Positions 13,495 through 48,167 of a DNA stretch of 64,000 nt are shown one piece after another (the stretch's first letter is position 1; every line of letters starts with the position of its first letter). The DNA comes from Rhizobiaceae bacterium (GTDB lineage Bacteria > Pseudomonadota > Alphaproteobacteria > Rhizobiales > Rhizobiaceae), in the NCBI GenBank assembly GCA_017643495.1, contig JAEPNK010000001.1, positions 849,623-913,622 on the forward strand. Direction: 5' to 3'. The notes beneath the pieces were generated by a model. That model was not told the origin of the DNA. It did not search any database and was given only the letters and a program-made list of their open reading frames with translations. The position numbers and the translations under genes are program-made.

Positions 13495-13528
13495 TTTCCG
13501 CTCTTTCTAGCCGAGGATTTGCACGGCT

Positions 13529-13915: not shown

Positions 13916-13976
13916 GCAAATTCTCCTGGATTGGTCGTTGGTTTGTGTGAGTGTAAAACAGGCAACGCCCAGACAA

Positions 13977-29608: not shown

Positions 29609-29710
29609 TTTCATCAATCTTAAATATTGAAATATATACCAAAACATATTTCATATATATTTTATCTCACCTACTATCCCACCATAAAGCTGTCTTGGCA
29701 ATTAGGCTAT

Positions 29711-31209: not shown

Positions 31210-32772
31210 ATGAAATTTGACAGACGTACGTTCCTGAAGTCATCGGCCATGGCCGGTGTTGCAGCGAGCGGAGCCATGGTGAACGGAGCGTTTTTCTCAA
31301 GTCCGGCCTTTGCTCAATCCAACAAGGTCATCAATTTCCTTTCAGCTGAAAACCTGACCGGCAACTGGGATCCGACCTCCCACACAACGCTGGGCCAGAT
31401 CAATTTCGAGAGTTTCGTGTTCGGTTATCTTACACGAGCGCCGATGACGCCGGATAATCCTGACGAACTAGTCTTCGAGCTGGCCGAAAGCATGGAGCTT
31501 CTTGACGAGCATCGTCTGCAGTTCAAACTGCGCAAGGGTGTCAAATTCCACAACGGTGAACCCTTTACAGCTGCTGATGTGAAGGCGACATTCGAATATG
31601 CATCCAAGCCTGATCGGCCGGCTGCCTGGTATCCAGGTCAGGTTACGGTGGACGTGGTTGACGACCATACGGCGGTTGTGAACACCAAAGAGCATGGCTA
31701 TCCGGCCAGTCTATACTGGTTCCTTTCTGCATTCCTTCCCATCATGTCCAAGAAGGACATTGAAGGTGGAGCACTTTCTGCCACTCCGAATGGCACCGGT
31801 GCTTTCAAGTTTGTGAAGCAGGACGGCAATACCAGTGTTCTTGAGGCCAACCCGGATTTCATTCTTGGAGCGCCAAAAGTTCCCGGTATCAATATGACGT
31901 TTGTTGGCGATGCGACCACACGCATGTTGTCGCTTCTCTCCGGTGAAGCAGACATCATTGAGCGTCTTGAAGGCGAGCAAGTTGAAACCATCAAGGAGAA
32001 AACCGGATTCGTGATCAACGAGGCGGTTTCCGTTGAGAACAAATATCTCTGGTTTCGTTGTTCGAAAGAACCATTCAATGATCCACGTCTTCGCAAGGCC
32101 GTGGCTCATGCCATTGATCGTGATGTCATTCTTGAGATTATGGGCGTTTCCGGCACACCTTCCAATGCCTGGATCTCTCCGGTGAAGTTCGGCTATGTCG
32201 ATACACCGAATTATCCGGAATACAGCCCGGAAAAGTGTCAGGCGCTCCTAGCTGAAGCCGGCTTTCCAGGCGGTCAAGGTCTGCCGAAGCTCGAATATAT
32301 CACGTCCGTGGGCTTCTATCCGAAGACCAAGGAGTATGGTGAGATCATCACTGCGATGCTCCAAGAGCAGGGTTTCGACATTGAATACTCCGCCATGGAA
32401 ATTGCGGCATGGGCTGACCGCTTATATGACCGTCCAGGTGGCGGACCAGGCCATATGATCGATTGCGGGTGGGCAACAGGGTCACCGGAACCAGATCTGG
32501 TTCTTCGCACGCACTTCCACTCGTCTTCAAAACGCATATGCGGCATTGAGGATCCGGAGTTGGATTCGGTTCTCGATAAGGAAAGGAATGCAACTGATCC
32601 AGCGGTCCGCAAGAAGATTATTCAGGAAGAGCTCATGCCGATGCTGGCGGAGAAGGTTCCGGCTTTGAGTCTGTTCACCTCAGTCTTCATTCACGCAATG
32701 CGGGAGGATTTGAAGGGGCTTTATATCTACCCGAATGGTATGATCGACGCGTCCAAAGCAACAAACGCTTAG
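31210..32772 (+). CDS. ABC transporter substrate-binding protein, family 5 (Tat-exported)
   Basis: A 520-residue periplasmic binding protein of the oligopeptide/nickel (SBP_bac_5) family. The N-terminus, MKFDRRTFLKSSAMAG, has the twin-arginine motif R-R-T-F-L-K, and cleavage is near P-A-F-A-Q, so export is by Tat. Family blocks include FKLRKGVKFHNGEPFTAADV and PFNDPRLRKAVAHAIDRDVI. The ligand cannot be read from the sequence; relatives bind peptides, glycosides, opines and other compounds. AGGAGGA is seven bases upstream. It is the first gene of the operon, and a strong hairpin follows it. Confidence 0.93.
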   Translation: MKFDRRTFLKSSAMAGVAASGAMVNGAFFSSPAFAQSNKVINFLSAENLTGNWDPTSHTTLGQINFESFVFGYLTRAPMTPDNPDELVFELAESMELLDEHRLQFKLRKGVKFHNGEPFTAADVKATFEYASKPDRPAAWYPGQVTVDVVDDHTAVVNTKEHGYPASLYWFLSAFLPIMSKKDIEGGALSATPNGTGAFKFVKQDGNTSVLEANPDFILGAPKVPGINMTFVGDATTRMLSLLSGEADIIERLEGEQVETIKEKTGFVINEAVSVENKYLWFRCSKEPFNDPRLRKAVAHAIDRDVILEIMGVSGTPSNAWISPVKFGYVDTPNYPEYSPEKCQALLAEAGFPGGQGLPKLEYITSVGFYPKTKEYGEIITAMLQEQGFDIEYSAMEIAAWADRLYDRPGGGPGHMIDCGWATGSPEPDLVLRTHFHSSSKRICGIEDPELDSVLDKERNATDPAVRKKIIQEELMPMLAEKVPALSLFTSVFIHAMREDLKGLYIYPNGMIDASKATNA

Positions 32773-32787
32773 AACTCAGCAACTAAC

Positions 32788-32820
32788 GAAGGCCGAGCGG
32801 GGATGTCTGCTCGGCCTTCT
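32788..32820 (+). terminator. Intercistronic hairpin after the binding-protein gene
   Basis: An 11-bp perfect stem, GAAGGCCGAGC at 32788-32798 with GCTCGGCCTTC at 32809-32819, around a 10-base loop, followed only by a short T-rich stretch. It sits 16 bases after the stop and before the first permease. Such a hairpin usually stabilises the upstream message and lets binding protein exceed membrane components; partial termination is the alternative. Confidence 0.75.
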
Positions 32821-32835
32821 TACTAAACGAAAAGG

Positions 32836-33825
32836 GTGCCAGGTTTGTATTTGCTGAGCTTTCTAACACGCAGGTTATTCCAAGGGGCGATCGTCCTTCT
32901 AATCGTAACCTTTGCAATATTTACCCTGCTGCGGGTAGTTCCTGGTGATCCGGCTCGACTGATCGTCGGTGGCATGGCTCCCGATGAGGTCGTTGTCCAA
33001 AAGGCCGAAGAGCTTGGCCTTAATGATCCAATCCCGGTCCAATTCATCCGCTATCTCGGCGATCTGGCTCAGGGAGATTTGGGTAATTCATTCTTTCGAC
33101 CGAAAAGCGGGGCTACCGTTGGCGCTGCCGCCTTTGATGATCCTTCACGTGATGAACGGGCCGAGGTTCGCGATCTCATATTCGAACGGATTCCGTTGAC
33201 ACTTCAGCTTGCAGGACTTGCTGTTGTCTTCGCACTACTCATGTCATTTCCACTTGGCGTTGCGGCTGGCCTTAATCCAGGCAGGTGGCAGGACAAGTTG
33301 GCGTTCTTTACAGGGTCGGTCTTCGTCTCGATCCCGAATTTCTGGCTTGGGATTGTGTTGGCGCAATTGTTTTCCGTCCAACTCGGTATCCTCCCATCAC
33401 TTGGATACAAGGGCTTTGAATACACCATTTTGCCGGCCTTTGTTCTGGCCGTTGGTATCTCGCCCTTCATTATCAGGACACTGTCGGTTTCGATTGCAGG
33501 AGTGATGCAAGAGGAGTTCATCAATGTCGCACCCCTACGCGGACTACGCCGTGCGCGTATTGTTGCAGCTCATGCGATCCGAAATGCTTCCATCCCACTT
33601 CTCAACCTCTTTGGTATCCAACTCGGTTCTCTGTTGGGCGTACTGCTCGTCGTCGAGCTGATCTTTGACTATCCAGGGCTGGGGCGCCTTACAATCAATG
33701 CGGTGCTGCAACGCGACTTCCCGATCATTCAAGGTGTTGCGATTTTCATCAGTGCCGCATTCGTCTTCATCAACATCATCGTCGATCTTGCTGCCAGCTA
33801 CATCGATCCAAGGTTGGAGTATTAA
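32836..33825 (+). CDS. ABC transporter permease, DppB type
   Basis: A 329-residue inner-membrane subunit with six predicted helices. The N-terminal pattern LTRRLFQGAIVLLIVTFAIF then VVPGDPARLIVGG is typical of DppB/OppB. The EAA loop, FINVAPLRGLRRARIVAAHA, contacts the ATPase. The start is GTG at 32836; there is no strong ribosome site and a TTG a few codons on is possible. It lies one base before the next permease gene. Confidence 0.92.
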   Translation: MPGLYLLSFLTRRLFQGAIVLLIVTFAIFTLLRVVPGDPARLIVGGMAPDEVVVQKAEELGLNDPIPVQFIRYLGDLAQGDLGNSFFRPKSGATVGAAAFDDPSRDERAEVRDLIFERIPLTLQLAGLAVVFALLMSFPLGVAAGLNPGRWQDKLAFFTGSVFVSIPNFWLGIVLAQLFSVQLGILPSLGYKGFEYTILPAFVLAVGISPFIIRTLSVSIAGVMQEEFINVAPLRGLRRARIVAAHAIRNASIPLLNLFGIQLGSLLGVLLVVELIFDYPGLGRLTINAVLQRDFPIIQGVAIFISAAFVFINIIVDLAASYIDPRLEY

Positions 33826-33826
33826 G

Positions 33827-34747
33827 ATGACTGATACGACATCCACGTCCGCAACACCACAACTCACTCCGGCTGAACTGCGTACGCCAATGCAGAGAAT
33901 GCTGCGGGAGGCCTTGTCGCGGACCTCGTTCAAAGTTGGCTTTGGCATGTTCCTCGCCCTGTTATTCGGCGCCCTGATTTATCCGGAGATTTCTTCAATC
34001 GATCCGACCAAGATGGCGGTGCGATCGCGACACATTCCTCCATTGTTTCTCGGTGAGAAGTGGGTCTGGGCACATCCGCTCGGCACTGATCATCTTGGTC
34101 GTGATCTGCTACTGCGGTGTTTGGTGGGCCTCAGATATTCGGTGATGATCGGTATCTGCACTGTCATTCTGATGTTTGTGGTTGGCTGTGCCCTTGGCCT
34201 GATATCGGGCTTCAAGGGCAAGCTGACCGATACAATCATCATGCGCATCACCGATGCACAGTTATCGATTCCCATGATCATCCTGGCGATCACCATTCTG
34301 GGCATATCGCGCCCGACTGCGCCCGCAATCATTCTAGTTCTTGGGCTTGCCGGTTGGCCGCTCTATGCGCGGGTCGCGCGTTCTGCAGCGCTTGCCGAAA
34401 AGCGCAAGGAATACATCAAGGGCCAACGCGTTCTCGGAGCTTCTGATTGGCGCATTATCACCTTGTTTGTTGCGCCTGCTGTTTTGCCGCCGATCGCGTT
34501 CGTTGCGGTTCTTGACGTAGCCGCGATCATGATATTTGAGTCGATCTTGGGCTTCATCGGTCTTGGCATTCAGCCTCCGACACCGACTTTTGGCAACATC
34601 ATTGCTGACGGGCGAAAATATCTGATCAATTCATGGTGGATCGCCACCATGCCGGGCGTCTTCCTGCTGTTCACCCTGACCAGCCTGAACCTGATGGGTT
34701 CGGCAATGGAAAATGCACGTAACAACGTGCTGAAGGGGGCGGCGTAA
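33827..34747 (+). CDS. ABC transporter permease, DppC type
   Basis: A 306-residue partner permease. The segment HPLGTDHLGRDLLLRCLVGL is the DppC/OppC hallmark after the first helix, and the EAA loop is IKGQRVLGASDWRIITLFVAP. Five to six helices are visible. The ATG at 33827 directly follows the stop of the DppB-type gene; the frame is open upstream inside that gene, but that extension is a shadow. The TAA overlaps the ATPase ATG by one base. Confidence 0.92.
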   Translation: MTDTTSTSATPQLTPAELRTPMQRMLREALSRTSFKVGFGMFLALLFGALIYPEISSIDPTKMAVRSRHIPPLFLGEKWVWAHPLGTDHLGRDLLLRCLVGLRYSVMIGICTVILMFVVGCALGLISGFKGKLTDTIIMRITDAQLSIPMIILAITILGISRPTAPAIILVLGLAGWPLYARVARSAALAEKRKEYIKGQRVLGASDWRIITLFVAPAVLPPIAFVAVLDVAAIMIFESILGFIGLGIQPPTPTFGNIIADGRKYLINSWWIATMPGVFLLFTLTSLNLMGSAMENARNNVLKGAA

Positions 34748-36585
34748 TGGCGGACAACAATTCAATTCTTTCAGTACGAAACTTATCTGTTGGACTTGAG
34801 AAAGACCCGGATGCTCGCATCATCGACGACATTAGTTTTGATCTTGGTGGCGGCAAGGTGCTTGGCCTCATTGGAGAGGCCGGTTCGGGTAAGACAGTCC
34901 TTGCGCGTGCATTGATCAATGGCATCGGCTCCCCGTTGATCTATCGCGGAGGCGATGTCCACTATCAGGACAAGAACATCCTGACTATTCCGATCAATGA
35001 GCTGACCAAAATCCGAGGCAACAGCATTGGCTATATCGGGTCCAATCCAGCAGGTGCATTGGACCCCACCGTACCGATTGGCGGTCAGATCGTTGAGAAG
35101 CTTCGCTCGGTCAACCCAAGCATGTCCAGAAAGCAAGCAACGGATCGAGCATTAGAAGTTCTGACGGCGGTCCGTATTCCGTCCCCGGAAGTGCGGTTCC
35201 ACGAATATCCGTTTCAGTTTTCTGGCGGCATGATGCAGCGGGTGATGATCGTGGATGCGCTTGTCACCAATCCATCCGTGCTCATTGCTGATAACATTAC
35301 CCAAGCGTTGGATGTTACGGTCGCTGCTCAGATTATTCGTCTGATTCAGGACCTGCGTGATCAATTTTCAACGGCGATCCTTTTCATCTCTTCATCGCTG
35401 CCAGTCGTGGAAACGATTGCAGATGAAGTGATGGTCTTGCAGCAGGGCAAGATTGTCGAGCAGGCAACTCCGAAAGCCCTTATCACGAAACCCAAGCACG
35501 AATACACGAAGTCGCTGCTTTCTCGTCTTCCACGGATTTGGGGCAAGGATATCAAGGGACCAGATGCGGTCGAAACACCGAATTTAATGTCAGTTGAAGA
35601 CGTGCACCGAACCTATTATGTGCGCAAGAAAGGCACATTCCGGGACATGAATGCGGTGCAGGCGGTTCGTGGTGTTTCGCTCGACATCAGAGAAGGCGAA
35701 AACATTGGTGTTGTTGGTGAGTCGGGATGCGGAAAATCGACACTAACTCGATTGCTTGCCTGGCTCGAGGAACCGCAGACGGGGACGATCAAGTTTAACG
35801 GACAGGATTTGTCTGCACTTGATCAGAAAGAACTGACGAAGCTTCGCCAGCAGTTTCAGCTTCTTCTGCAGGACCCTTATAGTTCGCTGCCATCTCGTAT
35901 GTCCGTAGGCCGGATCATTGCCGAGCCACTTCTCATTCACGGGATTGCAGAAGGAACTAAGCTGAAAGAGCGCGTTCGTGCTGCCATGACAGAAGTTGGC
36001 CTGGACCCGTCGCTGGAGAACCAGCTTACGGTCGGATTGAGTGCAGGTCAAAGACAGAGGATCAACATCGCGCGAGCATTGGTGCTCGAACCCAAGCTCA
36101 TGATCCTTGACGAGACCCTTTCATCTCTCGACCAGGTGGAACAATCAAAACTCTTTGAGCTCTTTGACAAGCTCCAGAAGACGCACGGGTTCACCTACAT
36201 CTTCATCTCGCATGACATGGCTTTGGTGCGCAAAGTCTGTCACCGGGTTGCGGTTATGTATCTCGGCCGAATCGTCGAACTGGCCGAGAACAACACGCTT
36301 TTCGAGAACCCAGCTCATCCCTATTCAAGAGCGTTGCTCAGTGCTGTGCCAACCTTGGACGTGCATCCGTTCAAATCCGATGAATATCTTCTCGAAGGTG
36401 AGCCGCCCAGTCCTGTCCACATTCCACCTGGATGTTCATACCGGACACGCTGTCCTTTAGCCCTTGAAATTTGTAATCGAATTGACCCGAAGGCCACAAT
36501 GTTGGCCGGGGGAGGGCAGGTGTCTTGTCATTTGGTTGACCAGGACCAGCAAGCTCAATCCGAACAAGCTGCAACGGTTACTTGA
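34747..36585 (+). CDS. Fused double ABC ATPase with degenerate first half
   Basis: A 612-residue protein carrying both nucleotide-binding domains of the importer (DppD+DppF fusion). NBD1 (about 1-270) has Walker A GEAGSGKT and signature FSGGMMQR, but the Q-loop Gln is Ser99 (IGSNPAG), the Walker B Glu is Asn183 (LIADNITQALD) and the H-loop His is Ser216 (FISSSLP). NBD2 (about 275-600) keeps Walker A GESGCGKS, Q375 (LLLQDP), E456 (ILDETLSSLD) and H489 (FISHDM), with signature LSAGQRQR. So only NBD2 should hydrolyse ATP well. The C-terminus, with CSYRTRCPLALEIC, is the usual oligopeptide-transporter Cys-rich tail. Confidence 0.93.
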   Translation: MADNNSILSVRNLSVGLEKDPDARIIDDISFDLGGGKVLGLIGEAGSGKTVLARALINGIGSPLIYRGGDVHYQDKNILTIPINELTKIRGNSIGYIGSNPAGALDPTVPIGGQIVEKLRSVNPSMSRKQATDRALEVLTAVRIPSPEVRFHEYPFQFSGGMMQRVMIVDALVTNPSVLIADNITQALDVTVAAQIIRLIQDLRDQFSTAILFISSSLPVVETIADEVMVLQQGKIVEQATPKALITKPKHEYTKSLLSRLPRIWGKDIKGPDAVETPNLMSVEDVHRTYYVRKKGTFRDMNAVQAVRGVSLDIREGENIGVVGESGCGKSTLTRLLAWLEEPQTGTIKFNGQDLSALDQKELTKLRQQFQLLLQDPYSSLPSRMSVGRIIAEPLLIHGIAEGTKLKERVRAAMTEVGLDPSLENQLTVGLSAGQRQRINIARALVLEPKLMILDETLSSLDQVEQSKLFELFDKLQKTHGFTYIFISHDMALVRKVCHRVAVMYLGRIVELAENNTLFENPAHPYSRALLSAVPTLDVHPFKSDEYLLEGEPPSPVHIPPGCSYRTRCPLALEICNRIDPKATMLAGGGQVSCHLVDQDQQAQSEQAATVT

Positions 36586-36594
36586 GGTGTACAG

Positions 36595-37353
36595 ATGCTG
36601 AACGTACATAGACGCGAACATATACTTGATGGAATTTCGAAACATAACCGTGTTTCGGTCGTGGATATTGCTGACAAGTTTGATGTTTCTGGCGAAACCA
36701 TTCGCCGCGATCTGAAAGATCTTGAAAAGGAAGGCCTGCTGCGTCGTGTGAGAGGCGGGGCGATTGGACCGGCCGGTATTCGCGACGAACCGATCAATGA
36801 ACGGGTTCAAAAGGCCGCCAAAGAGAAGGGCATCATTGCGCAGCTTGCTGCAGAACTGATCTCAGATCACACATCCATATTTCTTCATATCGGATCAACA
36901 ACCGAAGCTCTTGCGCGGCAGCTTGGCCAATTTACCGACCTTAAGGTCTACACCAACTCCCTGAATATCGCGCAAATCGCCAAGGACTTCAGCGGTGTAA
37001 CTGTTCATGTTGCGCCGGGGCAAGTACGCCCGGTGGAATCCGACCTCGTTGGCTATGACACGATTTCCTACATCGAAGGCTATCTCTTCGATACTGCCTT
37101 TATGAGCGTCGCCGGGATCGATCTCGAACACGGCTTCATGGACTTTGAGGAAGATGAAGTGCGCGTGCGTCAGGCGGTAATCAAGTCTGCGCGCAACTCA
37201 GTGGTCATGGCGGATTCTTCCAAGTTCGGAAAAACCGCCAACATATATACGGCTCCCTTCGACGCCATTGATCGTTTTGTCACCGACCGAAAGCCGGACA
37301 CGGCGTTCCTGTCAAAGTTTAACCATGCCGGAACGGAAGTGATACATGGCTGA
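36595..37353 (+). CDS. DeoR-family transcriptional regulator
   Basis: A 252-residue regulator. The HTH is RVSVVDIADKFDVSGETIRRDLKDLEKEGLLRR, split here as VDIADKFDVSGETIRRDL and EKEGLLRRVRGGAI; the effector domain has IFLHIGSTTEALARQL, KVYTNSLNIAQI and VVMADSSKFGK, all typical. DeoR effectors are often phosphorylated metabolites, which fits the kinases coded downstream in the same operon. The gene lies nine bases after the ATPase and overlaps the next gene by eight, so it is probably an autoregulated local repressor. Confidence 0.93.
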   Translation: MLNVHRREHILDGISKHNRVSVVDIADKFDVSGETIRRDLKDLEKEGLLRRVRGGAIGPAGIRDEPINERVQKAAKEKGIIAQLAAELISDHTSIFLHIGSTTEALARQLGQFTDLKVYTNSLNIAQIAKDFSGVTVHVAPGQVRPVESDLVGYDTISYIEGYLFDTAFMSVAGIDLEHGFMDFEEDEVRVRQAVIKSARNSVVMADSSKFGKTANIYTAPFDAIDRFVTDRKPDTAFLSKFNHAGTEVIHG

Positions 37354-38614
37354 ACCAGTAGTGATCAAACAGACATTTAAAGAGGACGTACTTGCACTGA
37401 TGGCACGCTATAGCGAGTTCGGTGCCACGCCTGAAGGCGGAGTAAACCGGCTTGCTGCGAGTTCAGAAGATAAGGACGCCCGAAATTTTTTGTGTCAGTG
37501 GTTAGAAAACCACGGATTTACTAAACTTATCGATCCCGCCGGAAATATTTTCGGTGTTTTAGAACTGGATCCATCTCAACCTGACACTTCACTTTTTTGC
37601 GGTTCCCATCTCGATAGCCAGCCCCATGGTGGCCGGTTTGACGGAACGCTCGGGGTCGTCATCGCGTGTGTGGCAGGTTTGACACTCAAAGATATGATCG
37701 ATCGCGGCGAGATTGAAAATTCCTATCGCAACTACGTCGTTGCCTGCTGGACCTCGGAAGAAGGCGCACGATTCCAGCCAAGCCTCCTGGGCAGCCGTTT
37801 CTTTGCTGGAAACCTGTCCAAAGAGGATGCGTGGAGCCTGACGGATGAGGAAGGAATCTCCCTCAAACAGGCTTTGAGCGATATTGGATATCTTGGAACA
37901 GATACACCTCCAAAGCCTGATCACTATCTCGAAGTTCATATCGAGCAAGGCAAAAAACTAGAAGATGCAGGCCTTTCTGTTGGCCTTGTGTCTTCCTCAT
38001 GGGGCGCCCGCAAACTCACGTTGTCGATTACTGGCAAGCCGGATCACACCGGCCCGACACCGATGGCTGTACGCAAGGATGCTTTACTCGCTGCGTCACG
38101 GGTCATCGTTGAAGTCAACGGGCTTGCGCAACGGTCTAAAGACGATTTGCATTCGTCGGTCGGTAGACTGAATGTCGAACCCAATTCTCCCAACACCGTT
38201 GTTTCGAAAGCTGAACTTTGGATTGAGTTCCGTTCCGCCGATGAAGCGCAACTCAATGCGGCGGAAGAATGGCTGCAGACAATGAGCACCGAGATCAGCA
38301 TACAAACGGGCTGTGAAATCACACAAAATAGCCGTGAGGTGCGTGCTGTTGTGACGTTCGACAGGACGGCCAACGGTAAGATCAGAAAAACCTTGGACAG
38401 TGCGGCGATACCAAACCTTTCTTTGACAACGATTGCTGGCCACGACGCGTTGCAGCTTCAGTCCATCTGCCCGTCGACACTGATGTTCGTTCGCTCGAAG
38501 GACGGGATCAGCCACACGCCGGACGAGTTCACGTCTGATTCCGATATTGAGACCGCTTTCGATGCAAGCATCGCAGCACTTTCTGCTCTGGTCTCTCAGC
38601 GGCTGCCAATGTAG
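37346..38614 (+). CDS. M20-type Zn amidohydrolase (N-carbamoyl / allantoate amidohydrolase-like)
   Basis: A 422-residue metal-dependent hydrolase of the ureidopropionase/allantoate amidohydrolase branch. Ligands are in CGSHLDSQPHGGRFDGTLGV (His, bridging Asp), WTSEEGARF (Glu), LEVHIEQGKKLEDAG (His) and ISHTPDEF (final His). The insert lid has GKPDHTGPTPMAVRKDAL. Relatives split the C-N bond of carbamoyl or ureido amino acids, and some act on other amides such as N-acyl cysteine. It overlaps the DeoR gene by eight bases. Substrate is unknown, but an amide or ureide bond fits the cluster. Confidence 0.9.
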   Translation: MAEPVVIKQTFKEDVLALMARYSEFGATPEGGVNRLAASSEDKDARNFLCQWLENHGFTKLIDPAGNIFGVLELDPSQPDTSLFCGSHLDSQPHGGRFDGTLGVVIACVAGLTLKDMIDRGEIENSYRNYVVACWTSEEGARFQPSLLGSRFFAGNLSKEDAWSLTDEEGISLKQALSDIGYLGTDTPPKPDHYLEVHIEQGKKLEDAGLSVGLVSSSWGARKLTLSITGKPDHTGPTPMAVRKDALLAASRVIVEVNGLAQRSKDDLHSSVGRLNVEPNSPNTVVSKAELWIEFRSADEAQLNAAEEWLQTMSTEISIQTGCEITQNSREVRAVVTFDRTANGKIRKTLDSAAIPNLSLTTIAGHDALQLQSICPSTLMFVRSKDGISHTPDEFTSDSDIETAFDASIAALSALVSQRLPM

Positions 38615-38629
38615 CGAGGGAGACCGCTC

Positions 38630-40221: not shown

Positions 40222-40242
40222 TAAGGACGCTGGAAACAGATA

Positions 40243-41607
40243 ATGACGGAAAAACTCACATTTGACGGGCTCAAACAACAGGTCGCAGGTGGCGAAATCG
40301 ATACCGTTTTGGTTTGCCTGGTCGATATGCAGGGCCGGCTGATGGGCAAGCGGTTCGTGGCGCAGCACTTTATCGACGGTGCCTATGAAGAAACCCATTG
40401 CTGCGATTATCTGCTGGCAACCGATCTCGAAATGGCGACGCCTGATGGCTACGCATCCACGAGTTGGGAGGCGGGCTATGGCGACTATGTCATGAAGCCT
40501 GATCTCGACACCCTTCGCCCCGTTCCCTGGCTTGAAGGCACGGTCATGGTTCTGTGCGATGTCCTAGATCATCATACACATGAGCCAGTCAGCCATTCGC
40601 CCAGACAGGTTCTGAAACGTCAGATCGAACGATTGACGGAACTCGGATTTGAAGCCGCGATGGCGACCGAGCTTGAGTTTTTCATCTTTGCCAAATCACT
40701 CGATGAGTTGCGCAGAGAAGGTTACCGCGATCTCGATCCGATCAGCGGCTACAACGAAGATTATCATATTCTTCAGACCACCAAGGAAGAGCATGTGATG
40801 CGGCCGATCCGCAACCATCTCTATGCGGCTGGTGTCCCGGTCGAAAACTCCAAGGGTGAGGCTGAAGCAGGTCAGGAAGAGCTGAACATCAAATATGATG
40901 CACCACTCAATTGTGCCGATCACCACACGATAGCAAAACACGCCATCAAGGAGATCGCATGGCAGCAAGGTCATTCCGCCACTTTTCTCCCGAAGTGGCA
41001 TCACGACCGGGTGGGCTCTTCCTCCCATATCCACCAATCACTCTGGAAAGATAGCAAGCCTGCATTTTATGATGAGAATGGCGATTGGGGCATGTCCGAG
41101 GTTATGCGCCAATATATGGCCGGCCTTCTGAAGTACGCTCCAGATACAACTGTTTTCCTGGCGCCTTATGTGAACAGCTACAAGCGGTTCCAGAAGGGCA
41201 CCTTCGCACCTACTGGCGTGGTTTGGTCGATCGATAACCGTACCGCTGGCTTCCGACTCTGCGGTGATGGAACGAAAGCGGTCCGTGTGGAATGTCGGAT
41301 CGGTGGATCGGACATCAATCCCTATCTCGCCATGGCGGCGCAGCTCGCCGCCGGAATTGCAGGCATAGAGGAAAAGCTCGAACTGCAGGACTCGCTCAAG
41401 GGCGACGCTTATCAGTCCCAAAAGGCCAAGCAGATTCCAGGTAATCTGCGCGACGCCATGGTGGCTCTCAAGAAATCAAAAATGCTGCGTAAGGCCTTCG
41501 GAGACGATGTTGTCGACCATTACGTGCGCTGCGCGGAATGGGAGCAGGAAGAATTTGACCGTGTGGTGACCGACTACGAAATTGCCCGCGGGTTTGAGAA
41601 AGCGTGA
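40243..41607 (+). CDS. Glutamine-synthetase-like gamma-glutamyl ligase
   Basis: A 454-residue GS-fold ligase. Catalytic blocks are MATELEFFIF, KGEAEAGQEELNIKYD, DRVGSSSHIHQSLW and DNRTAGFRLCGDG followed by ECRIGGSDINPYLAMAA. The asparagine-arginine-threonine block with R-L-C-G and the G-S-D-I-N-P-Y segment are shared with gamma-glutamyl-amine ligases such as PuuA and IpuC rather than with housekeeping GlnA, and no adenylylation-tyrosine loop is seen. I infer ATP-dependent joining of glutamate to an amine or amino alcohol. It sits between an amidohydrolase and the aldehyde and alcohol dehydrogenases, which suits a gamma-glutamylated intermediate. Confidence 0.92.
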   Translation: MTEKLTFDGLKQQVAGGEIDTVLVCLVDMQGRLMGKRFVAQHFIDGAYEETHCCDYLLATDLEMATPDGYASTSWEAGYGDYVMKPDLDTLRPVPWLEGTVMVLCDVLDHHTHEPVSHSPRQVLKRQIERLTELGFEAAMATELEFFIFAKSLDELRREGYRDLDPISGYNEDYHILQTTKEEHVMRPIRNHLYAAGVPVENSKGEAEAGQEELNIKYDAPLNCADHHTIAKHAIKEIAWQQGHSATFLPKWHHDRVGSSSHIHQSLWKDSKPAFYDENGDWGMSEVMRQYMAGLLKYAPDTTVFLAPYVNSYKRFQKGTFAPTGVVWSIDNRTAGFRLCGDGTKAVRVECRIGGSDINPYLAMAAQLAAGIAGIEEKLELQDSLKGDAYQSQKAKQIPGNLRDAMVALKKSKMLRKAFGDDVVDHYVRCAEWEQEEFDRVVTDYEIARGFEKA

Positions 41608-41621
41608 TCGGAACAAGAAGA

Positions 41622-42998
41622 ATGACAAAAACCGTACAATGCATATCACCGATTGATGGCTCCGTTTACGCGGAGCGTCCTCTTGTCAACTATGTTGCCG
41701 CCAAAGCGATTGTCGGCGAGCTTGCTTCGGCCCAGGCAGAGTGGGCCGCGCGGCCTCTTCATGAACGTATCGATCTGGTGATGGCTGGTGTCGCAGCAGT
41801 CGGTGCTCTCAACGACGAGATCGTTCCAGAACTCGCGCATCAGATGGGCCGGCCAATCCGCTATGGTGGTGAGTTTGGCGGCTTCAGCGAGCGTGCCAGC
41901 CATATGGCGAAAATCGCACAGGAAGCTCTTTCCGACATTTCTGTCTCAGATGACGATCAGTTCAAGCGTTATATCAAGCGGATCCCTCATGGCGTGGTGC
42001 TCGTCATCGCGCCCTGGAACTATCCCTATATGACGGCAGTCAACACGGTCGCCCCTGCTCTGATTGCGGGCAATACAGTCCTGTTGAAGCACGCTTCACA
42101 GACCCTCTTGGTCGGTGAACGAATGGCTGATGCGTTTTATTCTGCAGGCGTTCCCAAGGACGTCTTCCAGAACATCTTTCTTGATCATGATGTTACAGGA
42201 AAACTGATCGGTGACGGCTCATTCGGATTCATCAATTTCACCGGCTCTGTTGGTGGCGGCAAAGCCATGGAACAGGCCGCAGTGGGTACCTTCTCAGGCA
42301 TGGGGCTGGAGCTTGGCGGAAAGGATCCGGGCTATGTGATGGAAGATGCCGATCTCGATGCCGCGGTCGACTCGCTCATTAATGGCGCCATGTTTAATTC
42401 CGGTCAGTGCTGTTGTGGCATTGAACGTATCTATGTGGTCGAGTCCCTTTTTGACACCTTCGTTGAAAAGGCCGTCGAAATCGTCAATGGCTACAAGCTC
42501 GGCAATCCGCTTGATCCCGAGACAACACTCGGACCAATGGCGCATAAGCACGTTGCCGAAGAAGTTCGTGGCCAAATTTCAGAAGCGGTCGAAGCGGGTG
42601 CGAAAGCGCATATCGCCACCTTCGCCGAAGACGATGGCGGGGCATATCTGACCCCGCAAATCCTGACGAATGTTACCCACGACATGCGGGTTATGCGCGC
42701 AGAGAGTTTTGGGCCCGTGGTTGGCATCATGCCAGTCAAGGATGACGCTGAGGCGATTTCCTTGATGAACGATAGCGATTTCGGGCTGACCGCATCCCTT
42801 TGGACTAAAGACATTGGACGCGCCGAGAAGGTGGCGGACGCCATCGAAACCGGAACTGTATTCATGAACCGGTGTGACTATCTTGATCCGACCCTCTGCT
42901 GGACGGGATGCAAGGACACCGGAAGGGGTGGAGGTTTGTCGGTCATCGGCTACCACAACCTCACGCGCCCCAAATCTTATCATCTGAAGAAAGTATAA
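41622..42998 (+). CDS. Aldehyde dehydrogenase
   Basis: A 458-residue NAD(P)-dependent aldehyde dehydrogenase. IAPWNYPYMTAVNTVAPAL binds the cofactor, LELGGKDP holds the general-base Glu (about residue 230) and FNSGQCCCGIERI the catalytic Cys (about 264). ESFGPVVGIM completes the family set. The start at 41622 follows GGAACAAGAAG; a GTG at 41604, overlapping the GS stop, is an alternative. It lies five bases before the alcohol dehydrogenase gene, so the pair can oxidise an alcohol to an acid in two steps. Confidence 0.94.
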   Translation: MTKTVQCISPIDGSVYAERPLVNYVAAKAIVGELASAQAEWAARPLHERIDLVMAGVAAVGALNDEIVPELAHQMGRPIRYGGEFGGFSERASHMAKIAQEALSDISVSDDDQFKRYIKRIPHGVVLVIAPWNYPYMTAVNTVAPALIAGNTVLLKHASQTLLVGERMADAFYSAGVPKDVFQNIFLDHDVTGKLIGDGSFGFINFTGSVGGGKAMEQAAVGTFSGMGLELGGKDPGYVMEDADLDAAVDSLINGAMFNSGQCCCGIERIYVVESLFDTFVEKAVEIVNGYKLGNPLDPETTLGPMAHKHVAEEVRGQISEAVEAGAKAHIATFAEDDGGAYLTPQILTNVTHDMRVMRAESFGPVVGIMPVKDDAEAISLMNDSDFGLTASLWTKDIGRAEKVADAIETGTVFMNRCDYLDPTLCWTGCKDTGRGGGLSVIGYHNLTRPKSYHLKKV

Positions 42999-43003
42999 TA
43001 GAG

Positions 43004-44149
43004 ATGACACTTACTGGTAACTGGTCCTATCCAACCTCAATCCGCTTCGGTGCTGGCCGGATTTCCGAGATTGCGGACGCCTGCAAATCTGCGGGCATCT
43101 CCAAGCCGTTATTGGTGACGGATAAGGGCCTGGCCAGCATGGAGATTACGACCAGCACTCTTGATCTGATGGATGAAGCTGGGCTTGGTTGCGGATTGTT
43201 TTCTGATGTCGATGCCAATCCGACAGACACGAACTCGCATGAAGGCGTCCGCGCTTTCAATGAGGGTGGCCATGACGGGGTGATAGCTTTTGGGGGCGGA
43301 TCGGGTCTGGACCTGGCCAAAGTGATTGCCTTTATGGCTGGCCAGATCCGTCCACTTTGGGATTTCGAAGACATTGGTGATTGGTGGACGCGGGCAAACG
43401 CTGACGCGATTGCACCAATTGTTGCGGTTCCAACAACCGCTGGTACAGGTTCGGAAGTCGGACGCGCCAGTGTCATTACGAATTCCGAGAGCCATGAGAA
43501 GAAGATCATCTTCCATCCGAAGATGTTGCCTTCTGTCGTCATTTGCGATCCTGAACTGACTGTTGGGATGCCGAAGTTCATCACGGCGGGAACCGGCCTT
43601 GATGCTTTCGCACATTGTGTCGAAGCCTATTCGAGCCCTCATTATCACCCGATGAGCCAGGGAATTGCGCTAGAGGGCATGAGGCTTGTGAAAGAATATC
43701 TACCGCGCGCTTATGCTGATGGGACCGATATCGACGCGCGAGCAAACATGATGTCGGCCGCGGCTATGGGGGCCACGGCCTTCCAGAAGGGTTTGGGAGC
43801 GATCCACGCGCTCAGCCATCCCATTGGAGCTGTCCATCACACCCATCATGGCACGACCAATGCTGTCTGCATGCCGGCAGTTCTCAAGTTCAATACGGAT
43901 GCCATTCGCGACCGCTTTGATGCGGCCGCAGCTTATCTTGGGATCGAAGGGGGCTTCGAAGGTTTCTGTGCCTATGTCGATGAACTCAATGCATCCATGG
44001 GCATTCCGAAATCACTAACGAAATTGGGTGTAGTGGATCCGGATCTCAATGCACTGACAGACGCGGCGCTCCGGGATCCAAGCACTGGCGGTAACCCAGT
44101 TGAAATGACGAAGGACAACACCAGAGCGCTTTTTGAAGCTGTCCTCTGA
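43004..44149 (+). CDS. Iron-containing alcohol dehydrogenase
   Basis: A 381-residue group III alcohol dehydrogenase. The nucleotide-binding GGGSGLDLAK and PTTAGTGSEVGRASVI are present, and the metal site is complete: GTGLDAFAHCVEAY (Asp, His), GAIHALSHPIGAVHHTHHG (two further His). The ATG at 43004 is the natural start five bases after the aldehyde dehydrogenase; the frame is open further back inside that gene. With its neighbour it should carry an alcohol-bearing substrate to the carboxylate. Confidence 0.94.
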   Translation: MTLTGNWSYPTSIRFGAGRISEIADACKSAGISKPLLVTDKGLASMEITTSTLDLMDEAGLGCGLFSDVDANPTDTNSHEGVRAFNEGGHDGVIAFGGGSGLDLAKVIAFMAGQIRPLWDFEDIGDWWTRANADAIAPIVAVPTTAGTGSEVGRASVITNSESHEKKIIFHPKMLPSVVICDPELTVGMPKFITAGTGLDAFAHCVEAYSSPHYHPMSQGIALEGMRLVKEYLPRAYADGTDIDARANMMSAAAMGATAFQKGLGAIHALSHPIGAVHHTHHGTTNAVCMPAVLKFNTDAIRDRFDAAAAYLGIEGGFEGFCAYVDELNASMGIPKSLTKLGVVDPDLNALTDAALRDPSTGGNPVEMTKDNTRALFEAVL

Positions 44150-44209
44150 TTGGTTTGGGATTGGTAAGAAGAGCCAGTTTTTTAATGCGGCGTAGTGAGA
44201 GAAACGAAA

Positions 44210-45601
44210 ATGAACATAGATGAGCTATCACATATCTCACTGCGAGACCTCCAGGATGCATTGAGCAAGAGAGAGGTCAGTCCGGTTGAGCTAGTGGATC
44301 TAACACTAGATCAGACTGATGCGGTCAATGACCAGATCAATGCGCTATATGATGTCAGGCATGAGGAAGCGCGCCAAGAGGCCAAGGCATCAGAAGGTCG
44401 GTATCTCAAAGGCAATCCCATCTGTCCGTTCGACGGCATTCCTGTCACCATAAAAGACAGCGTGAACGCTGTGGGCATGAAGTGGTTTCATGGCACGAAC
44501 ATTCACGGAAACGGTGTCGTTGCCAAGAAAGATTCCCCCCCTGCTGCCCGACTGAAGGAAGCAGGAACCATCATCATTGGCAAAGGTGCCATGCCTGACT
44601 TCGGACTAAGCGGGTCAGGGGTTAGCGGTTCCCATGGGATCGTTCGCAATCCCTGGGGCCTGGAGTGGAACACAGGCGGGTCAAGTGCCGGTGGCGCCGC
44701 GTCCTTGGCTGCCGGTATTGGAATGATGTCGCTGGGCTCAGACATTGCCGGTTCAGTGCGTCTTCCTGCCGCCCATTGTGGCTTGGCAGCATTGAAGCCG
44801 ACGCAAGGTGCCATACCGCACGCGCCTGCCTCAACTGTCCGGTCAGCGGGTCCGATAACACGCTCCGCGGCTGATCTCAGTGCCTGGACGATGTTGCTCA
44901 ACAAGCCGCATGAGGATGATCGTTATTCCGTTCCGCTTCGCGATGAACACAATGGGGATCGACCGGTCATTGGTGCGACAGTGGATTTTGGATTTGGACC
45001 GGATGTGGAACCTGCGGTTCTCAAGTGTTTTGAAACCGTAAAATCAGTGCTGTCCGGACTGTTCGAACCCATCAAAGAGATCACAACCAAAGCCGGTTTT
45101 GACGCTTATTTGCCGATCGATGATTCTTTGAAGATCAAAGGCTGGCAGGAATACCAATCTGCTGAAGAACACATGCGTTGTAAGACACCCTCCCAACTCT
45201 ATGAATGGTTCAAGGAGGCGGAACATTGGACACCCACGAAACTCGCATCCGTTAATGACGGAATCGAAAAAGGTGTTGCCTTTTGTCGCGAACTGTTTGC
45301 GGACGTTGAAGTTCTCCTGACACCCGTGATGCCTGTCGTCAATTTTCCTGCCGCGCACCGTGGCATTGATCCGTCTATGCCGCTGCGGCACTCCACGTTC
45401 ACAGCGCTCTTTAATCAATCCGGCAATCCTGCCGTTTCCATTTGCGGAGGATTTGATGACCGTGGATTGCCGATTGGGATTCAGCTTGTTGGCAAGCGGT
45501 TTGACGATTTGCGCTTGATGAATATCGCAGCCAAGCTTGAAGATGCTCTTGGGGTCATGGGTGAAGGCCGTAAGAACTGGCCCACAGCTCCAGTTGCATG
45601 A
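44210..45601 (+). CDS. Amidase (amidase-signature family)
   Basis: A 463-residue amidase with the Ser-cisSer-Lys triad: the Lys in GIPVTIKDSVNA, the cis-Ser in WNTGGSSAGGAAS and the nucleophile Ser in GSDIAGSVRLPAAHCG. The start at 44210 has GAGAG upstream; an in-frame codon at 44195 is possible. It hydrolyses an amide bond, so the operon codes for three different amide-cleaving enzymes (with the M20-type and FGase-like proteins). It follows the alcohol dehydrogenase after 60 bases. Confidence 0.93.
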   Translation: MNIDELSHISLRDLQDALSKREVSPVELVDLTLDQTDAVNDQINALYDVRHEEARQEAKASEGRYLKGNPICPFDGIPVTIKDSVNAVGMKWFHGTNIHGNGVVAKKDSPPAARLKEAGTIIIGKGAMPDFGLSGSGVSGSHGIVRNPWGLEWNTGGSSAGGAASLAAGIGMMSLGSDIAGSVRLPAAHCGLAALKPTQGAIPHAPASTVRSAGPITRSAADLSAWTMLLNKPHEDDRYSVPLRDEHNGDRPVIGATVDFGFGPDVEPAVLKCFETVKSVLSGLFEPIKEITTKAGFDAYLPIDDSLKIKGWQEYQSAEEHMRCKTPSQLYEWFKEAEHWTPTKLASVNDGIEKGVAFCRELFADVEVLLTPVMPVVNFPAAHRGIDPSMPLRHSTFTALFNQSGNPAVSICGGFDDRGLPIGIQLVGKRFDDLRLMNIAAKLEDALGVMGEGRKNWPTAPVA

Positions 45602-45612
45602 GGGGAGAGAAA

Positions 45613-46560
45613 ATGTCCGATAGTGAAGACATCAGATTTGAATTTGCCAGGAAGTGCGCCGGGAACGTGTTGGGTTCTCCGCCAGAGACAATAGAAAATC
45701 CTTTGACCGTGTTGGCATCACCGGCCTGGCGCGGCGTTGAAGCGGATGTCTGGTTGGCCAAGACGGGAGATAAGTCTGTCGTTCTTAAACAGTACCATCC
45801 CGACACAGACTTCTATGTCGATCCCTCGCCGGCAATTGAGGCGGCGGAGGAAGCTGGCAAATTGGGCGTCGGACCCAAGGTAGTTGAAACTTGGGTTGAA
45901 GATGGTGTCTTGGCATTTGAGGAACTCGCTTCTCCATGGGTCGCTGGAGGCCTCCATCACACCCTCGATCCGGATATCAGATCAAATGTCATCGAACAAA
46001 AGAAAACCTTTCAGTTGGGCGCAACGCTCTCCAGATCGGTTAGCATCTTTGACGAGATCAAGGATCTGCATGGCATTACCGTCCAAGAGGCCATCACCAC
46101 CCACAATGACATCGTTCCTTTCATGGACTTTGCTGTCGAAGCTGAACAGAAATTACGTGCTTGTGGGTGGGATCAAAAGCCATGTCATCGAGATGGCAAT
46201 ACTGCCAATCTGATGGTCAACCCCGACAAGGCGGTCCAACTGATCGACTTTGATCTATCAGCAAATAGCGATCCCTTTGAGGATGTTGGTGCGTATCTGA
46301 TCGAGTGCTTCGAACACGATGTGGATGCACGTGCTGGATTCGAAGAATGGCAGGGGTTTTTCGACGAGGGCCTGTTTCAGCGATCAATGATCTATGGACT
46401 GATGGATGATCTCAGATGGGGTCTCATCGGATCGATTATGGGAGCACGGTCTCCTAGAACAAGCCTTGAATTCACCAAATATGCTGCCTGGCGGTTCATT
46501 CGGCTACAAGCCCAAGCCAAACGTTCGGATGCCAATTATCGCATTCGGAAGGCCGCATAG
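45613..46560 (+). CDS. APH/choline-kinase-fold phosphotransferase 1
   Basis: A 315-residue kinase-fold protein. The Brenner motif PCHRDGNTANLMV holds the catalytic Asp and Asn, and the metal Asp is in QLIDFDLSANSDPFEDVG. The N-lobe Lys is probably that of VVLKQYHP. Family members phosphorylate choline, ethanolamine, aminoglycosides or methylthioribose. The start at 45613 follows GGGGAGAG. It lies nine bases before a second, diverged kinase of the same fold, so the two may act on different substrates, form a heterodimer, or act in sequence. Confidence 0.85.
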   Translation: MSDSEDIRFEFARKCAGNVLGSPPETIENPLTVLASPAWRGVEADVWLAKTGDKSVVLKQYHPDTDFYVDPSPAIEAAEEAGKLGVGPKVVETWVEDGVLAFEELASPWVAGGLHHTLDPDIRSNVIEQKKTFQLGATLSRSVSIFDEIKDLHGITVQEAITTHNDIVPFMDFAVEAEQKLRACGWDQKPCHRDGNTANLMVNPDKAVQLIDFDLSANSDPFEDVGAYLIECFEHDVDARAGFEEWQGFFDEGLFQRSMIYGLMDDLRWGLIGSIMGARSPRTSLEFTKYAAWRFIRLQAQAKRSDANYRIRKAA

Positions 46561-46569
46561 GAGATCGCC

Positions 46570-47493
46570 ATGACAACAGAATTGGAACAACAGCTTCAAG
46601 ATGCGGTCAACTCGGTTCCGGGCTGGACATGGGAAGAAGTTGACGTGGCACCGCTTGATGGTGGCGTCACCAATGCAAATTTCGTGGCCATCAAGGGCGG
46701 CAAAAAGCACTTTATGAAAGTGTATGGTCCTGGGACGGAGAGCTTCATCAACCGGGACGGCTCAAACGATGCCGCATTGCAAGCTCATGAGATCGGCATC
46801 GGGCCCAACGTGCTTCATTATGACAAGGAGACTGGTCTCGAGGTGGTTGAGTTCCTTGATGGATATCGTGCTTCGCTGACCTCCGACTATGCCCGCACCG
46901 ATTTCCTGGAACATGTGATCGATCTTTATGCCACGTTCCATAAGAGCAAACCGCTTTCAGACACCAAGGACGTGTTTGAGATGACCCAAGAACATATCGA
47001 TCAGGGTGCTGAACTTGGTGTGCATCGACCCGTCGATTTTGATTGGCTCTACCATCAATATTCCAAGGCGAGAGAAGCCTTTTTTGCATCCGGCCTCGAC
47101 TTGGTGCCCTGTCACAATGATCCAATGCCCGGCAACTTCATGGTGACCATGGATGGCGACACTATCACCGACATGAAGATGATCGACTATGAGTATGCGT
47201 CCAATAATGAGCGCGCTTACGAGATCGGCGTCTTCCTGGCCGAGGTCTTTGTCGATGAGAAAACTTCGCTCGAGATGATAGAGCGGTATTATGGTGAAGT
47301 TCGTGCAAGCACTGTTGCAAGGGTGACTGTTGCCCGTGCAGTCGCGGACATGAAGTGGGGGAATTGGGCACTCCAGCAACGCAAATTGCAGGATTGGGAT
47401 TTCGACTACCAGAAATACGGCATTTGGAAGCTCGCCCGGGCACGCATGATGTTTAACGATCCCAGATGGGACGACTGGTTGCGTACCATATGA
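46570..47493 (+). CDS. Choline/ethanolamine-kinase-like phosphotransferase 2
   Basis: A 307-residue protein. PLDGGVTNANF and KHFMKVYGPGTESFINR form the N-lobe of LicA-type choline kinases; VPCHNDPMPGNFMV and MKMIDYEYASNNERAYEIG are the catalytic and metal loops. The pattern is closer to choline/ethanolamine kinases than the preceding gene's. I infer O-phosphorylation of an amino alcohol or a related imported compound. Its stop overlaps the ATG of the phosphatase gene by four bases. Confidence 0.87.
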   Translation: MTTELEQQLQDAVNSVPGWTWEEVDVAPLDGGVTNANFVAIKGGKKHFMKVYGPGTESFINRDGSNDAALQAHEIGIGPNVLHYDKETGLEVVEFLDGYRASLTSDYARTDFLEHVIDLYATFHKSKPLSDTKDVFEMTQEHIDQGAELGVHRPVDFDWLYHQYSKAREAFFASGLDLVPCHNDPMPGNFMVTMDGDTITDMKMIDYEYASNNERAYEIGVFLAEVFVDEKTSLEMIERYYGEVRASTVARVTVARAVADMKWGNWALQQRKLQDWDFDYQKYGIWKLARARMMFNDPRWDDWLRTI

Positions 47494-48167
47494 GTTTTGA
47501 TGGCGTTACAGTTTGCTTCGATATGGACGGCACGCTTGTCGACACTGCCCCTGATCTGGTAGCCGCAATGAACCATGTCTTGAAAGCAAATGGTTTCGAT
47601 ACCGTTGCCTATGACAACGGCAAGACCATGATCGGGCAGGGGGCTGCTGCCATGATCAAGAGCGGTCTAGACTTGCTCGGCGAGCAAGTCAGCGTCGAAC
47701 AGCTGAGGTTAATGGAATCCGCATTTGCCGCCCATTACGATGAGAACTTTGCCGAGAAATCTGCCGTTTTCGGCGGTGCGGATCTGGCTTTGAGGGAGCT
47801 ACGTAATCTTGGCTGCAATCTGGTTGTTTGCTCCAATACAGGTGAACAACTGGTGAACATGATCCTGACTGAATTCGGACTTCGGGATTACTTCCGTACG
47901 ATATGCGGCGGCGACACGACTGAGCACAAAAAACCGGATCCACGCCCCTTGCAACATGTGGTTTCCATCTCTGGAGGAACGTCTTCGCGGTCTGTGATGG
48001 TCGGAGATTCAGAAACAGACATTGAAGCGGCTAAACGCGCAGACATGCCAGTAATCGCATTTGACTTTGGGTACTCCAAAACTCCCGTCAATCAGTTGAA
48101 CGCAAGCGCAGTTCTATCAAGCTACACACTTCTACCGGCGACGATCAGCGACATCATGATGCATTGA
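47490..48167 (+). CDS. HAD-family phosphatase, phosphoglycolate-phosphatase-like
   Basis: A 225-residue HAD hydrolase. Motif I is CFDMDGTLVDTAPDLV, with the nucleophile and acid Asp; motif II is VVCSNTGEQ; motif III is the Lys in EHKKPDPRPL and motif IV is VMVGDSETDIEAA. The layout is that of Gph, but it stands in a catabolic operon, so it more likely dephosphorylates a pathway intermediate. It is translationally coupled to the kinase before it (ATGA) and is the last gene of the operon. Confidence 0.88.
   Translation: MSFDGVTVCFDMDGTLVDTAPDLVAAMNHVLKANGFDTVAYDNGKTMIGQGAAAMIKSGLDLLGEQVSVEQLRLMESAFAAHYDENFAEKSAVFGGADLALRELRNLGCNLVVCSNTGEQLVNMILTEFGLRDYFRTICGGDTTEHKKPDPRPLQHVVSISGGTSSRSVMVGDSETDIEAAKRADMPVIAFDFGYSKTPVNQLNASAVLSSYTLLPATISDIMMH

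Follow-up and report, generated by a model that had tools for sequence, protein, structure and literature searches.

A fifteen-gene operon of a Rhizobiaceae bacterium with a probable role in releasing and oxidising conjugated ethanolamine

The window analysed here, a stretch of 64,000 nucleotides from a Rhizobiaceae bacterium (contig JAEPNK010000001.1 of assembly GCA_017643495.1), carries at positions 31210-48167 an operon of fifteen genes which, judged from gene families, gene order and comparison with other genomes, probably imports a conjugate of ethanolamine, frees the ethanolamine and oxidises it to glycine. The parts of this reading differ in strength. We have very little doubt that the core of the operon would gamma-glutamylate ethanolamine, and there are good grounds for thinking that a front end supplies ethanolamine by releasing it from a conjugate; that phosphorylation precedes cleavage of the amide has somewhat less than an even chance. 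Ethanolamine as the hub is well supported, and the conjugate and the order of reactions are inferred. The four-gene core is known, and its combination with the front end is, as far as the open-licence literature shows, new; no description of the front-end cassette was found in that literature, which is no proof of absence.

Ethanolamine is a product of phospholipid breakdown, and its use links the cycling of phosphorus, nitrogen and carbon, as set out in PMC10132767. If the reading given above is correct, several phyla share an unrecognised way of releasing bound ethanolamine, and as the intermediate is indicated by the alternative end modules described below, a directed screen should be able to find the substrate.

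The predicted gamma-glutamylation core

Four consecutive genes at 39415-44149 encode an FGase-family hydrolase (39415..40221), a glutamine synthetase (GS)-like ligase (40243..41607), an aldehyde dehydrogenase (ALDH, 41622..42998) and an iron-containing alcohol dehydrogenase (Fe-ADH, 43004..44149), and in family and order this block corresponds to the published pathway of ethanolamine gamma-glutamylation. Going by homology and gene order, the ligase would act as a gamma-glutamylethanolamide synthetase, the Fe-ADH and the ALDH, as proposed gamma-glutamylethanolamide and gamma-glutamyl-aminoacetaldehyde dehydrogenases, would lead to gamma-glutamylglycine, and the FGase-like enzyme, a proposed gamma-glutamylglycine amidohydrolase, would yield glutamate and glycine.

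The ethanolamine operon of Phaeobacter MED193 reads RpiR-FGase-TRAP-GS-ALDH-FeADH; several of its proteins rose on phosphorylethanolamine, the TRAP binding protein EtoX bound ethanolamine with a measured dissociation constant (Kd) of 7.9 uM, and the enzyme roles are that paper's predictions (PMC10132767). For Streptomyces GlnA4, synthesis of gamma-glutamylethanolamide was shown and an FGase-family enzyme was proposed for the last step, and the pathway there has a short-chain dehydrogenase where the window has an Fe-ADH (PMC6529630). With the Phaeobacter operon the window operon shares the four consecutive FGase-GS-ALDH-FeADH genes in identical families and order, but it lacks the TRAP importer and RpiR, has DeoR instead, and its block is embedded in an ABC-M20-IMPase-amidase-kinase-kinase operon. 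No dedicated ethanolamine importer, whether EtoVWX TRAP or a permease, is among the operon's genes, the importer being of the SBP_bac_5 ABC type. The Phaeobacter order also occurs in Paracoccus denitrificans and Ruegeria B32, and Sinorhizobium meliloti pairs the same core order with an amino acid permease gene. GS identities between the window and these three operons are 61-76%, and the window FGase is 41-46% identical to the FGases of three other eto-type operons. Compared with two plasmid-borne operons of this type (Paracoccus denitrificans, Ruegeria conchae), identities are 61-74% for GS, 67-76% for ALDH and 68-74% for FeADH.

Profile scores, PDB matches and homologues all indicate that the ligase is of the gamma-glutamylethanolamide type and not a canonical GlnA. 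It scores 264 bits against the NCBIfam GlnA model, whose cut-off is 429, and its PDB matches are led by 5dm3 (755 bits), presumably the Chromohalobacter salexigens enzyme, and 11zs (586), the remaining 33 listed reaching at most 187. Its flap Glu is a Phe (GTF-AP against GYE-AP in the organism's own GlnA), the same replacement of Glu by Phe as in GlnA4 (PMC6529630). The genome holds that GlnA separately, and an ordinary glutamine synthetase was rejected on these four grounds. The ALDH, the Fe-ADH and the FGase-type hydrolase form one block with the ligase. An earlier note on this DNA had likewise set the ligase apart from ordinary glutamine synthetases, which the GlnA score, the PDB matches and the flap Phe uphold; its further statement that no described pathway has this gene set fails for the four core genes, which are those of ethanolamine gamma-glutamylation, and stands for the other eleven only.

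The logic of gamma-glutamyl protection is common to the Ipu (isopropylamine) and Puu (putrescine) pathways, of which the former needs a monooxygenase system and the latter a gamma-glutamylputrescine synthetase together with the FAD oxidase PuuB. The window operon differs in having neither monooxygenase nor FAD oxidase: Pfam recognised no monooxygenase in the fifteen genes, which led us to reject the Ipu pathway, and the Puu pathway was rejected on a score of 211 bits against the ligase model NF045547 (cut-off 650) and the lack of an FAD oxidoreductase in the fifteen genes.

The same genome holds a stand-alone eto-type operon (L142, G000:C10:1624000-1641000, genes at ~1627.7-1636.5 kb) in the order RpiR-FGase-TRAP-TRAP-EtoX-GS-ALDH-FeADH. 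Its identities to P. denitrificans are 45% for RpiR, 49% and 68% for the small and large TRAP permeases and 76% for the EtoX-like protein, and those to the window are 43% for FGase, 74% for GS, 72% for ALDH and 79% for FeADH. To judge from these likenesses, free ethanolamine seems already to be served there with both importer and pathway. The Eut (ethanolamine ammonia-lyase) pathway was rejected for this genome, where EutB gave 0 matches. Because the stand-alone copy comes with a TRAP importer and the window's importer is of the peptide/opine type, the window copy is probably devoted to a conjugate of ethanolamine.

The front-end cassette and its disposal modules

The front end comprises a peptide-type ABC importer with its solute-binding protein (SBP), a DeoR-family regulator (36595..37353), an M20 amidohydrolase (37346..38614), an inositol monophosphatase (IMPase)-family phosphatase (38630..39415), an amidase-signature amidase (44210..45601) and two kinases (45613..46560 and 46570..47493). 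We scanned named genomes with the kinase-2 alignment and obtained 286 pattern matches and 191 confirmed relatives, from which 80 loci were analysed; each extends at most 10 kb per side and several contigs are short, so that all neighbour counts are lower bounds. Cassette-like loci were found in Alphaproteobacteria, Gammaproteobacteria and Actinomycetota, with kinase 1 in 77 of the 80, M20 in 67, IMPase in 44, DeoR in 43, SBP in 42 and the amidase in 42.

Modules for disposing of ethanolamine or phosphoethanolamine lie within ~10 kb of many of these loci, namely EutB at 11, a phospho-lyase at 22 and an eto-type GS at 2, with at least one of them at 34/80; EutB stands within 1 kb and on the same strand in 10 of its 11 loci. 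Three chemically unrelated enzymes, assigned by homology to ethanolamine or phosphoethanolamine, stand by one cassette. The earlier note had suggested looking for neighbourhoods with the GS-like ligase and both kinases; an eto-type GS lies near the cassette in two of the 80 loci, plus the window. The note was right to see the operon as catabolic in appearance and to name an amino-alcohol or its amide or phosphate derivative as the likely substrate. Ethanolamine is favoured over alaninol and choline, since the cassette elsewhere has EutB-EutC or a phosphoethanolamine-type phospho-lyase next to it.

On the Agrobacterium plasmid pAspH13-3a the order importer-DeoR-M20-kinase-kinase-IMPase (HisN-like) is followed by EutB-EutC instead of the four-gene block, and in Shinella sumterensis DeoR-M20-kinase-kinase-HisN(IMPase)-EutB-EutC stands behind a different importer, which the annotation gives as branched-chain type, and DeoR is preceded by a gene annotated as an amidase. 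These two cassettes, which are known from annotation and for which no described function was found, have DeoR, M20, kinase 1, kinase 2 and IMPase in common with the window, from which they differ in that the kinases precede the IMPase and EutBC replaces the gamma-glutamylation block; pAspH13-3a shares the window's SBP-permease-permease-ATPase importer and lacks the amidase gene. Rhizobium johnstonii pRL12 has the importer, DeoR, M20 and two kinases only, and a locus whose SBP is 84% identical over the part available (L051) shows the window's order without the four-gene block, its genome having a stand-alone eto operon. In the window and in L052 (Oceanibium sediminis) the IMPase and amidase genes flank the gamma-glutamylation block, which in L117 follows kinase 2; on the kinase-2 tree this label takes three changes, with window/L052 and L117 in separate supported groups.

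The recurring phospho-lyase is a 442-residue class-III pyridoxal phosphate (PLP) protein whose nearest match is 5g4i (phospholyase, 333 bits), followed by 6tor (human ethanolamine-phosphate phospho-lyase, ETNPPL, 330 bits), the next family scoring 190. The family has no gene in the window operon; a phospho-lyase route at the 22 loci would consume phosphoethanolamine directly. In seven Rhodococcus loci its frame starts 2-4 positions past the last base of kinase 2. In Rhodococcus ruber (L074, ~9944-14404) kinase 2, phospho-lyase, EutB and EutC are consecutive, giving two ethanolamine disposal routes behind one cassette. Many actinobacterial loci carry an SSF symporter and a GntR/UTRA regulator in place of the ABC importer and DeoR.

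The association extends to whole genomes. Forty of the 80 loci were chosen, for 38 of which genomes were available, and the control comprised 152 other Alphaproteobacteria, drawn evenly and lacking a kinase-2 match at E 1e-60. EutB was found in 15 of the cassette genomes, the eto-type GS in 18, both in 1 and either in 32, as against 15, 19, 1 and 33 of the controls, an enrichment of EutB or GS with Fisher p ~1e-12 (32/38 vs 33/152); without the five Gammaproteobacteria and Actinomycetota, placed by name, the figure is 28/33 (Fisher p ~1e-11). EutB and the eto-type GS coincide in only 1/38 cassette genomes (p 5e-5). At least one of the three modules is present in 36/38, the other two being metagenome-assembled genomes (MAGs) of 1.7 and 3.3 Mb.

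Some neighbourhoods differ. Six Bradyrhizobium loci (L053, L054, L057, L059, L062, L065) have a second set near the cassette, with a GS of 33-39% and an FeADH of ~53% identity, an M20 and in some an ALDH, which is perhaps another gamma-glutamyl pathway with M20 replacing FGase. In a Paracoccaceae MAG (L049, 11027-13607), the nearest kinase-2 relative has downstream of it, in place of a known ethanolamine module, genes for a DAO-BFD oxidase and a pyridine-nucleotide oxidoreductase, a combination that resembles opine-oxidase pairs. The flanks of the Carnimonas locus (L070) were searched for clues to the substrate and held polyphosphate, alcohol dehydrogenase, periplasmic-binding and tetrapyrrole-methylase genes, which were judged unrelated.

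A proposed order of reactions and its alternatives

The window M20 enzyme belongs to the carbamoylase/allantoate-amidohydrolase superfamily and is a relative of beta-ureidopropionase and L-carbamoylase (8c46, 3n5f); the metal and catalytic motifs and the carboxylate-type, anion-binding Arg are kept in 69/69 cassette-locus sequences. In 8C46 it is Arg291 that binds the substrate carboxylate (PMC10952681), and its equivalent was located by hand count along the alignment, the offset being fixed by that paper's Glu131, Gln196 and His385. The cassette enzymes are recognisable by a diagnostic NSPN motif, with Pro instead of the Arg of the NS-R-N motif of ordinary members in the window and 68/69 cassette enzymes and Ala in 1. 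A non-cassette sample was drawn from 43 M20 matches in 41 related genomes, 30 of these matches being readable in the DNA; three lay beside kinases, all NSPN, and the 27 others had Pro in 0/27 and Arg in 22/27. We ruled out the idea that the Arg of NSRN binds carboxylate and that its loss signals a carboxylate-free substrate, since the carboxylate Arg is another residue, and it is kept (PMC10952681).

Unlike this motif, the carbamoyl-orienting Gln is as in beta-ureidopropionase and L-carbamoylase in the window; across the 69 sequences the position holds Gln in 35, Gly in 27 and Cys in 7. As the Arg is present in 69/69 but this position is mixed, the anion anchor would be kept while the acyl side varies. 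Enzymes of the 8C46 type can also hydrolyse analogues in which a sulfonic or phosphonic group replaces the carboxylate (PMC10952681). By analogy, an N-acyl-phosphoethanolamine would place its anion comparably, and this would account for the kinases found alongside a hydrolase of the carboxylate type. The predicted M20 structure has a pLDDT of 82, and no conclusion was drawn from it.

Both kinases are predicted to have the choline/ethanolamine kinase fold with its catalytic HxD...N/D residues. Kinase 1 (APH1) has an intact active site in the window; its D194, N199 and D212 occur in 80/80 sequences and H192 in 78/80, and the model (pLDDT 94) has its best fold matches in the choline kinase LicA and a Mesorhizobium choline/ethanolamine-kinase-family protein. 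Kinase 2 (APH2) matches Choline_kinase, its D184, N189 and D206 are invariant in 6/6, and five cassette relatives are 42-53% identical. The nearest model for the IMPase is the histidinol-phosphatase HisN (232.5 bits, cut-off 275); histidinol phosphate is a substituted phosphoethanolamine. A similar phosphatase, 58% identical, occurs on a Ruegeria conchae plasmid (L039, 9546-16045) in the order DeoR-IMPase-FGase-GS-ALDH-FeADH-EamA, with no M20 or kinase gene listed nearby, and phosphoethanolamine might be imported there. This locus adjoins another DeoR gene and peptide-type ABC importer.

The order that we propose would begin with uptake of an N-acyl-ethanolamine-like amide by the peptide-type ABC importer. 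One or both kinases would then phosphorylate the amide and give it an anionic end near the amide nitrogen, the M20 enzyme with its anion-binding Arg would cleave it to phosphoethanolamine, the amidase may cleave a second bond or a variant substrate, and the IMPase would dephosphorylate phosphoethanolamine ahead of the gamma-glutamylation block. More speculatively, and in our estimate rather doubtfully, the cassette could encode an undescribed route for ethanolamides that depends on phosphorylation, in which a kinase phosphorylates the hydroxyl of an N-acyl-ethanolamine and so lets the M20 enzyme grip the phosphate and cut the amide, after which any one of three unrelated enzymes, a B12 ammonia-lyase, a PLP phospho-lyase or a gamma-glutamyl ligase, plugs in for the ethanolamine part.

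Several points weigh against such a scheme. Within ~10 kb, 46/80 loci are without any of the three disposal modules, some contigs being short; the phospho-lyase family at E 1e-75 is found in 25/38 cassette genomes, a count for the cassette genomes alone; and cassette and control genomes were unmatched for size, completeness and lineage. A carboxylate substrate would suit the kept Arg equally well, given the binding of carboxylate by Arg291 in 8C46. The IMPase is present in 13/13 loci with EutB or GS, in 15/21 with the phospho-lyase alone and in 16/46 with no module, and a tree-aware test on six pairs gave a median p of 0.125, so that its being specific to the EutBC and GS routes is suggestive only, and as a firm claim was dropped; nor does it depend on the kinases, because in Ruegeria conchae it heads the GS block without them. 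The link with the phospho-lyase could also reflect a kinase whose substrate is free ethanolamine and not a conjugate, and the amidase (42/80 loci) and the HAD phosphatase (window only) are left without a definite step.

The strongest alternative, tentative in our judgement, is that kinases and phosphatase form an inducer or trapping loop, in which the phosphorylated conjugate or ethanolamine is the DeoR ligand, the IMPase or HAD enzyme reverses the phosphorylation, and M20 and amidase cut the unphosphorylated amide. DeoR regulators commonly sense phosphorylated ligands, and a DeoR gene is found in the window and in 43/80 loci; moreover, a locus of the same genome (L048) pairs DeoR, IMPase and choline-kinase-like genes with an unrelated oxidase, and Ruegeria conchae has DeoR and IMPase with the GS block and no kinases. 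However, actinobacterial loci with GntR/UTRA instead of DeoR retain both kinases, which are thus not bound to DeoR, and two kinases for one inducer seems excessive.

It is improbable that the operon serves free ethanolamine only, its front-end genes being accessory, even though the Phaeobacter block with a TRAP importer is a predicted full pathway (PMC10132767): the genome already has a stand-alone TRAP-type operon, the window importer is of the peptide/opine type, and M20 and kinases remain linked across several phyla, with EutB or the phospho-lyase close by at some of the loci. We assign the same low probability to a close analogue as the amino alcohol (alaninol, 1-amino-2-propanol or serinol), or to a simple alkylamine as in Ipu; the side activities of EutBC and of GS-like ligases can extend to these compounds, but GS, ALDH and FeADH share 61-79% identity with their counterparts in three other ethanolamine-type operons, and an Ipu-kind monooxygenase is missing from the fifteen genes. 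Least probable is the version of the earlier note, in which an amidohydrolase, M20 or the amidase, hydrolyses the gamma-glutamyl intermediate and releases glutamate: M20 enzymes do cut N-acyl bonds and the six Bradyrhizobium loci place GS (33-39%)-FeADH-M20 near the cassette, but the described pathway gives that role to the FGase-like protein (PMC10132767, PMC6529630), and the M20 gene is part of the front end, whose cassette also occurs with EutB-EutC and without this ligase.

Operon layout and neighbouring loci

The fifteen genes all lie on the plus strand, in the order and with the tight spacing first noted for them. Intergenic distances range from -8 to 63 bases, the widest being 63 bases (SBP/permease) and 45-60 bases (Fe-ADH/amidase), with the remaining gaps at most 21 and a maximal overlap of 8. 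In order, Pfam recognises SBP_bac_5, two BPD_transp_1, ABC_tran, DeoRC with HTH_DeoR, Peptidase_M20, Inositol_P, FGase, Gln-synt_C, Aldedh, Fe-ADH, Amidase, APH, Choline_kinase/APH and HAD_2. Family searches agree with the names first given to the genes, and the count of three amidases and two kinase-like proteins was fair, kinase 1 qualifying by fold and kinase 2 by its Choline_kinase match.

The importer consists of the solute-binding protein (31210..32772), with a TAT-type signal below cut-off and agrocinopine- and dipeptide-binding proteins among its PDB relatives, two permeases (32836..33825 and 33827..34747) and a fused double ATPase of peptide type (34747..36585), in which ABC_tran matches two stretches and oligo_HPY is also present. 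The last gene (47490..48167) encodes a phosphoglycolate-phosphatase-like HAD protein, below the model cut-off at 169 vs 180 bits, and none of the 80 related loci had a gene labelled as such a phosphatase. Among alternative starts we prefer 33827 for permease 2, 41622 (or GTG 41604) for ALDH, 43004 for Fe-ADH, 44210 (or GTG 44195) for the amidase, 45613 for kinase 1 and 47490 for HAD, whose ATG overlaps the kinase-2 stop.

Between 30900 and 48700 a consensus promoter scan gave 9 matches against 13.6 +/- 4.7 in shuffles and a terminator scan 15 against 16.8 +/- 4.4, so that neither an internal terminator nor a promoter splitting the cluster is evident, and the whole operon is likely to be a single transcript. 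G+C content is even, at 49-55% throughout 28-50 kb in 2-kb steps.

Within its genus the cassette is accessory: kinase 2 had a match at E 1e-60 in 0/11 genomes (best 4.4e-23; several genomes incomplete). In three same-genus stretches (L186-L188) rmuC-def-fmt is conserved in 3/3, and neither the SBP and HAD genes, beside rmuC-def-fmt, nor the window's left-flank genes were found. Some 1.6 kb without a Pfam-recognised gene (29609-31210) separates the operon from a tRNA-Ser (29519-29608). As a genomic-island boundary this tRNA was rejected, an exact second copy of its last 15-25 bases not being found in the window and an empty site not being demonstrated in the same-genus comparison.

Two further loci of the genome carry related families. 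The one that combines DeoR and choline-kinase-like genes with an IMPase at 49% identity to that of the window (L048, G000:C11:680000-699900) also has ABC permeases and a DAO-GCV_T oxidase, and is possibly a sister theme for methylated amines. The other (L047, G000:C10:912000-931900) extends past the window's right end and holds two tandem GS-like frames of 453 and 464 residues, with 25% and 31% identity to the window GS. Elsewhere in the window, a further gene for an M20-family peptidase, one of the ordinary kind that has a dimerisation domain, lies at 18418-19815, and an autotransporter gene of 1267 residues occupies 8661-12464.

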